Position numbers and translations under genes: made by a program. Source: Phycisphaera sp. (lineage in GTDB: Bacteria > Planctomycetota > Phycisphaerae > Phycisphaerales > SM1A02). From it: 64,000 bases of DNA. The stretch spans positions 1 through 64,000 of the forward strand of contig WGMP01000052.1 in NCBI GenBank assembly GCA_016124975.1, given 5' to 3'. Shown here in pieces: positions 39,895-40,997 of the stretch (position 1 is the first letter of the stretch; every line of letters starts with the position of its first letter). Under the pieces are notes generated by a model. That model ran no database searches. It was given only the letters and a program-made list of their open reading frames with translations, and was not told the origin of the DNA.

Positions 39895-40128
39895 ATGCTT
39901 GTGATCACCCGACGCGAGAACGAAGAGGTTGTGATCGGTGACCCCGCGTCGCCGATCGGAGTCGTGCGCATCGTGTCGATCAAGGGCGACCGCGTGCGGG
40001 TGGCCTTCGACTTCCCCCGCACCGTGCAGGTCCACCGCCGCGAGGTCGCCGACCAGATCGTCTCGAGCGGCGCGGAAGAGGGCGCGAATGTGATCGGCTC
40101 GATCCGCCCCGCCACAGAAGGCGGCTGA
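39895..40128 (+). CDS. csrA: Carbon storage regulator CsrA
   Basis: CsrA is a dimeric RNA-binding protein that blocks or stabilises mRNAs by binding ANGGA in hairpin loops, often over the ribosome binding site. The 77-residue protein starts MLVITRRENEEVVIGD and has the family core VVRIVSIKGDRVRVAFDFP and VHRREVADQI, with the C-terminal RNA-contact Arg/Glu region. AGGAGG at 39881-39886 lies eight bases before ATG; the leader itself contains GGCAGGAGG, a possible autoregulatory site. The gene is closed by a terminator. A putative CsrA-binding RNA is encoded convergently downstream. Confidence 0.96.
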   Translation: MLVITRRENEEVVIGDPASPIGVVRIVSIKGDRVRVAFDFPRTVQVHRREVADQIVSSGAEEGANVIGSIRPATEGG

Positions 40129-40158: not shown

Positions 40159-40187
40159 GACGCCGCCATTCGCGGCGTCTTTTCTTT
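40159..40187 (+). terminator. Rho-independent terminator of csrA
   Basis: GACGCCGC (40159-40166) pairs with GCGGCGTC (40172-40179) across a five-base loop, followed by TTTTCTTT. Confidence 0.92.
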
Positions 40188-40215
40188 GCGCGCGGGACGG
40201 TGTGCGGAGCGAAGC

Positions 40216-40254
40216 AAAAGAAAAGCGGCCCCGGTCTGCGAAGACCGAGGCCGC
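40216..40254 (-). terminator. Rho-independent terminator of the putative sRNA / mraZ transcript
   Basis: On the minus strand GCGGCCTCGGTC pairs with GACCGGGGCCGC (one mismatch, loop TTCGCA), followed by TTTTCTTTTG. Confidence 0.92.
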
Positions 40255-40545
40255 GCATCGTGCCAGCCGGCGATCCGTGCCGGCCGCATCGAAGGCCTGG
40301 CCGTCCTTGGCCAGGCAGAGCGAAGCGCAGGATGCCTGCGCGCACCCGGTGCGCAGGCTGGCGCGGGATTTCAGCCGTTTCCGGCCTTGCAGAGGCGCAT
40401 CCGTGCGCTTCCGCGATCCCGCCGCCGCGCGAGGCGGCGTCCCTTGCGACCGCTGACACGACGATCCGTGTCGAGCCAGCGGCTTGTTCGTTCCAATCGC
40501 CTCCGCGCCCCTTCGGGCTCGGCCGCGCCATCCACGCTTTCACAC
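40216..40545 (-). ncRNA. Putative CsrB/RsmZ-like CsrA-binding RNA
   Basis: No gene fits this stretch, but the minus strand is a run of hairpins ending in a strong terminator. Four carry a CsrA-type loop: CCGCTG/CAGCGG with CGAC-ACGGATC-GTCG (40450-40482), GCGC-ACGGAT-GCGC (40395-40408), CCTGGCC-AAGGAC-GGCCAGG (40296-40315) and GCCGGC-ACGGATC-GCCGGC (40266-40284). Further GGA sites occur in single-stranded parts (AAGGGA, TTGGAA, GTGGAT). A GCCG-GAAA-CGGC hairpin lies between. csrA itself is 90 bases away, convergent. The family role would be titrating CsrA. The 5' end is a guess; the RNA may be its own transcript or the mraZ 3' UTR. Confidence 0.6.
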
Positions 40546-40589
40546 CTTTCGCTTGCCTTCGCGTGTGCCTTCGCGCTCACGCACCCGGC

Positions 40590-40997
40590 TCACGCGCCCG
40601 CCATCGCAGCCATCTCGCGCACCCGCTGCTCGCGGGTCGTCAGCTCGAGGTGGTCGCGCACGCCGAGGATCACCACCGTGCCGCTCAGGCCAAACTCCTG
40701 CAGCAGCCGATCGGGAATGCGCACGCGCCCCGAACTGTCGAAGGGCACCCTCGCCGCGCGCGAGAAGAGCTGGCGGTTGTGCCGCGCCACTTCCTCTTGC
40801 GTCACCAGACCGCTCTCGATGCGGTCGGCGTACTCCTCGAACTTCTTCTCAGGCCAAAGCCAGAGACCACCCGTTTGTCCTGGCGCGGCGATGAACATCG
40901 ATCCGTGCCGCTCAGGCTTCCACTCGTCGCGAATCTCCACGGGAATCGCCAACCGCTGCTTCGAGTCGAGGGAATGTTCGTACTCGCCGAGAAACAT
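40590..40997 (-). CDS. mraZ: MraZ, transcriptional regulator of the division/cell-wall cluster type
   Basis: This 135-residue protein has the two SpoVT/AbrB-like MraZ domains with their DxxxR motifs, SLDSKQRLAIP and PFDSSGRVRIP. MraZ normally heads the dcw cluster and represses it. Here rsmH (mraW), ftsL and ftsZ are absent and the putative CsrA-binding RNA follows instead. ATG at 40997 gives the standard MF.GEY start. The frame is open upstream to 41240 with an in-frame ATG at about 41142; a perfect AAGGAGGTGA (41160-41169) lies about 20 bases before that ATG, too far for normal use. Confidence 0.93.
   Translation of the reverse strand: MFLGEYEHSLDSKQRLAIPVEIRDEWKPERHGSMFIAAPGQTGGLWLWPEKKFEEYADRIESGLVTQEEVARHNRQLFSRAARVPFDSSGRVRIPDRLLQEFGLSGTVVILGVRDHLELTTREQRVREMAAMAGA

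Follow-up and report, generated by a model that had tools for sequence, protein, structure and literature searches.

A putative CsrA-titrating decoy in the mraZ 3′ untranslated region of Phycisphaerales

Within the 64,000-nucleotide stretch of Phycisphaera sp. DNA analyzed here (the window), a cluster of hairpins with GGA in their loops lies beside a csrA gene, raising the question of whether a planctomycete makes an RNA that sequesters CsrA and, if so, from which transcript and for which CsrA protein. To our knowledge, RNA antagonists of CsrA have been described almost only from gammaproteobacteria. A first-pass annotation had claimed four minus-strand ANGGA hairpins, an intrinsic terminator behind them, and a csrA gene in convergent orientation; all four hairpins, the terminator, and the arrangement of csrA facing mraZ are indeed there (Table 1).

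A hairpin cluster between mraZ and csrA2

The stems of all four hairpins are perfect, apart from the imperfect outer stem of H1. The stretch has two further conserved elements: the CGGGUGCG hairpin is kept in the genus and can be traced further in the family as GGGUG, while GATTGGAACGAA, located 5′ of the first hairpin, is GATTGRA-like in 23 of 77 loci and might serve as a site for processing or for a protein.

Table 1. Features of the mraZ-csrA2 locus, by position in the window
Feature	Position	Strand	Remarks
mraZ 3′ UTR bearing CsrA-decoy hairpins (putative)	40215..40589	-	From mraZ stop to U-tract
Hairpin H1, cgac-ACGGATC-gtcg	Core 40473-40459; outer imperfect stem 40482-40450	-	A-N-GGA loop
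Hairpin H2, gcgca-CGGA-tgcgc	40408-40395	-	A-N-GGA hairpin
Hairpin H3, gcctggcc-AAGGAC-ggccaggc	40316-40295	-	A-N-GGA loop
Hairpin H4, cggccggc-ACGGATC-gccggctg	40286-40264	-	A-N-GGA loop
Intrinsic terminator of decoy RNA, TTTTCTTTT	40254-40225	-	Predicted; 13-bp stem
mraZ, transcript carrying the RNA	40590..40997	-	Converges with csrA2
Sigma70-like promoter of mraZ, TTGCAA-17-TACCTT	41051-41023	-	RRGTG repeats (putative MraZ boxes) overlap it at 10-bp spacing
csrA2, divergent CsrA paralog	39895..40128	+	RNA-contact residues kept
Terminator of csrA2	40159..40179	+	
Hairpin with invariant CGGGUGCG loop	40335..40357	-	Non-GGA; conserved
Leader element GATTGGAACGAA	40487..40498	-	Conserved

On the minus strand, the stretch folds better than 100 of 100 shuffled versions (z = -4.2), but its opposite strand likewise outdoes shuffles; folding energy alone is therefore not decisive, and we dropped it as evidence. 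Loop content is more telling. Against a genomic background of 40 stretches (864 kb of the same genome, both strands), the window locus is the top-ranked A-N-GGA hairpin cluster. Four such hairpins within 300 nt occur in one other place, where the stems are shorter, and nowhere else does the background hold more than two loops of the CsrA type (CANGGAN1-2G). A repeat or mobile-element origin was rejected, as BLAST gave no second copy in the genome; the only other match of a covariance model in G000 is weak (22 bits).

Conservation of the hairpins and of their loops

We located mraZ in 141 of 151 related genomes (Planctomycetota, largely Phycisphaerales MAGs). Behind the 79 mraZ loci of the window's family, the mraZ strand bears 254 A-N-GGA hairpins, versus 10 antisense, 21.6 in shuffled sequence, and 13 upstream of mraZ. 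Similar excesses appear in the rest of the order (51 loci; 112 sense versus 13 antisense, 14.1 shuffled, and 18 upstream of mraZ) and in other families of the class (19 loci; 35 versus 4 and 6.5). Outside the class the signal fades and is no longer clear (16 sense versus 0 antisense and 8.3 shuffled), and on that ground we reject phylum-wide occurrence. Within the family, at least one sense hairpin is present at 77 of 79 loci and at least three at 62 (antisense, 0; shuffled, 0.2), while none of the 79 loci has two or more antisense hairpins. Terminator-like hairpins, the 3′ ends typical of CsrA-sequestering RNAs, follow at 54 of 79 loci (shuffled, 2.4). The richest copy seen has eight A-N-GGA hairpins in 500 nt behind mraZ (L255, genome G095). 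At another locus (L016, genome G014), about 350 extra bases resembling a transposase remnant separate the RNA terminator from csrA, and the RNA is intact.

Covariation was assessed in an alignment of 15 congeneric sequences covering the 3′ half of the RNA. Its four helices comprise 34 base pairs, at which 93.7% of cells are paired, versus 29 to 43% when one side is slid; two-sided changes occur at 16 of the 34 pairs, a level reached by 0 of 500 shuffles. The first-pass annotation had named conserved ANGGA loops and covarying stems in relatives' intergenic regions as what a genuine element should display, and both are present. The covariance model gives one strong match (113 to 151 bits) per genome in 16 of 16 congeners, and each lies directly downstream of mraZ.

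Across the family, stem sequences are rewritten and the loop is kept. The CANGGANG loop context occurs in 169 of 253 family hairpins, versus 111 of 757 genomic hairpins (15%) and 87 of 695 shuffled ones, and equally stable GANGGANC is depleted (5/253, or 2%, versus 152/757, or 20%, of genomic chance hairpins). CANGGANG matches the core of RUACARGGAUGU, the SELEX consensus of Escherichia coli CsrA (PMC3856055), and the region has the several GGA loop motifs in a CsrA consensus context that mark CsrA-sequestering small RNAs. Of the sequence evidence, it is this loop specificity that points most strongly to CsrA as ligand. That the hairpins instead serve another RNA-binding protein or merely protect the 3′ end, with incidental GGA loops, is very improbable: the ANGGA loop and its C-G closing pair stay constant while stems change, and the hairpins are missing from planctomycete genomes that have no CsrA. 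In ten genomes without detectable CsrA, we found 1 hairpin in total behind mraZ where about 3 were expected, a control confounded by phylogeny because nearly all of these genomes lie outside the class.

Probable transcription together with mraZ

A stock-tool scan for sigma70 promoters found no match, because the tool demands close consensus. We therefore rely on a looser scan for sigma70-type promoters only, anchored on TTG and TANNNT (TTG-N16-18-TANNNT) with shuffle controls. Such a promoter precedes mraZ at 63 of 76 family loci (4.6 shuffled) and at 31 of 51 other loci of the order (3.75 expected); most congeners have it as TTGAAA-17-TATTCT or TATCTT. Over it lie RRGTG repeats with a 10-bp period, two at 41 of 78 loci (versus 1.2) and three at 26 (versus 0). 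They are similar to the AAAGTG[T/G] repeats to which MraZ binds in Mollicutes (PMC8475190), and MraZ possibly autorepresses the transcript that comprises mraZ and its tail.

The hairpins themselves have no such promoter: in the 200 nt that precede the first hairpin, we found a sigma70-type promoter at 0 of 77 family loci (0.7 expected) and 0 of 51 other loci of the order (0.45 expected), so the scan shows no promoter of the kind that would mark a free-standing CsrA-sequestering RNA gene. Since the hairpin RNA is without a detectable promoter of its own while one precedes mraZ, it is most likely the mraZ 3′ UTR, and a single transcript of mraZ plus tail is the simplest reading of the sequence. 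Where the first-pass annotation had left the RNA as either free-standing or made from the mraZ transcript, the promoter counts favor the latter. An independent CsrB-like small RNA, transcribed from between mraZ and the hairpins and dedicated to the adjoining CsrA, would fit the RNA's own terminator and the fact that it stops before csrA at codirectional loci; it is nonetheless improbable, given these promoter results and a distance from the mraZ stop to the first A-N-GGA loop that is as short as 20 nt at some loci. An own promoter is in any case not obligatory for a CsrA-sequestering RNA, as illustrated by RsmU of Xanthomonas, a genus-restricted RsmA-sequestering RNA processed from the 3′ UTR of comEA mRNA (PMC7694677). 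RsmU is the closest known RNA by origin; the present one differs in being carried by mraZ and in being order-wide. Processing of the mraZ tail into a small RNA is likewise possible.

Which CsrA the RNA may serve

The genome holds two CsrA proteins, CsrA1 (84.6 bits) and CsrA2 (54 bits). The gene for CsrA1, the canonical one, adjoins fliW and apparently also a flagellin gene on another contig, and the csrA of the window encodes the divergent paralog CsrA2, which passes the PF02599 profile cut-off and has RNA-contact residues R6, R48 (R44 in E. coli), and E50 in 72 of 72 sequences. In one planctomycete family (f47; G297, G317, G334, and G351), CsrA has undergone an unusually large expansion, with 9 to 17 matches per genome. 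Adjacency of csrA2 to the RNA is confined to the window's family, in a subset of whose loci csrA is codirectional with the RNA. That codirectional layout, together with the two terminators that separate the transcripts, led us to reject an antisense role toward csrA. At four codirectional loci (L023, L025, L037, and L040), csrA2 is preceded by A-N-GGA sites and a CAGGAGG Shine-Dalgarno sequence, which suggests CsrA autoregulation.

In other families of the order, CsrA2 is encoded elsewhere, with no hairpin cluster beside csrA2, and a dedicated RNA-csrA2 pairing by position was rejected on that ground. The RNA stays behind mraZ where csrA sits elsewhere, and in family f5, which has CsrA1 only, 16 hairpins still follow mraZ (antisense, 3; shuffled, 1.75). 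Because CsrA2 occurs elsewhere without the RNA and f5 keeps the hairpins with CsrA1 alone, the RNA is probably older than its adjacency to csrA2, and it may serve either CsrA protein. Within the window's family, FliW is absent from all 17 genomes that have the divergent CsrA2 type alone and present in all 23 CsrA1-bearing genomes tested. At least two hairpins are found in 13 of the 15 FliW-less genomes whose RNA region was read; the other two (L031 and L032) score 0 to 1 hairpins in a strict scan. A pairing of the RNA with CsrA2 is thus plausible in the family, since genomes without FliW and CsrA1 keep CsrA2 and, where read, mostly keep the RNA. The earlier proposal that the RNA titrates the neighboring CsrA therefore divides: conservation, covariation, and loop context speak strongly for a decoy, while family-only adjacency and the hairpins of CsrA1-only f5 speak against a dedicated neighbor.

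CsrA might also act solely in cis, stabilizing or destabilizing mraZ mRNA as an ordinary target, with nothing titrated. As such control would have it, the RNA never occurs apart from mraZ, wherever csrA lies, and shares the mraZ promoter; its several sites, far from the ribosome-binding site, are more decoy-like than single regulated sites, and csrA2 came to adjoin the RNA in one family. We regard control in cis alone as unlikely.

A probable decoy alongside FliW

We consider it probable that the region is a structured 3′ UTR of mraZ mRNA acting as a CsrA-titrating decoy; that it is transcribed, binds CsrA, titrates CsrA in trans, and is linked to MraZ activity is what we infer from the comparisons above. 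Transcription, probably autorepressed by MraZ, would start from the mraZ promoter, pass through mraZ, and stop at the 40254-40225 terminator. The tail would offer four hairpins whose loops carry the CsrA-binding core (C)ANGGAN(G), and CsrA dimers, most likely of CsrA2 and possibly also of FliW-linked CsrA1, would bind these loops and be withdrawn from their mRNA targets, with the decoy acting either while still part of the whole mRNA or after processing into a 3′ fragment. Two features count against such a decoy: the CGGGUGCG hairpin and GATTGGAACGAA have no role in its plain form, and about four sites are fewer than in CsrB. Only tentatively do we propose the wider scheme, in which mraZ mRNA has two products, MraZ protein and, in the 3′ UTR, a CsrA decoy shared across the order. 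Cell division control would thereby be wired to the Csr network, with FliW restraining CsrA1 and the mraZ tail restraining a dedicated paralog, CsrA2.

The RNA resembles CsrB, CsrC, and RsmX/Y/Z of gammaproteobacteria in its repeated GGA-loop hairpins, CsrA SELEX-like context, and terminator, and differs from them in being planctomycete, most likely part of the mraZ transcript, and coexistent with FliW. No Rfam covariance model reached threshold; among CsrB, CsrC, RsmX, RsmY, RsmZ, RsmW, and TwoAYGGAY, none matched at gathering score, and the best was RsmW (19.9 versus 52 bits). The TwoAYGGAY motif, whose reported sources are human gut, gammaproteobacteria, and Clostridiales (PMC2864571), is alike in its AYGGAY-type hairpin loop, as judged from the motif name. 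The FliW-CsrA partner switch likewise antagonizes CsrA, but through a protein. Either FliW or BarA-UvrY, the system producing CsrB/C, is found in 340 of 346 csrA genomes; the two are nearly mutually exclusive, BarA-UvrY has been proposed rarely or never to make such RNAs outside gammaproteobacteria, and Planctomycetes are among the lineages that may use FliW (Zere et al., PMC4682653). Our search of the open literature, with subscription journals mostly outside it and a prior description possible, returned no CsrA decoy in Planctomycetes or Phycisphaerae and no decoy in an mraZ 3′ UTR.

The main surprise is to find FliW and an RNA decoy side by side: a whole planctomycete order appears to have such a decoy in addition to FliW, and to have it in genomes with two CsrA paralogs. 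The decoy would tie Csr to mraZ, a widespread regulator of the division cluster, and give mraZ transcription a testable consequence. As a 3′ UTR in which hairpins are conserved and sequence drifts, it is of a kind that BLAST-type searches can miss, and like decoys may therefore be overlooked in other phyla.
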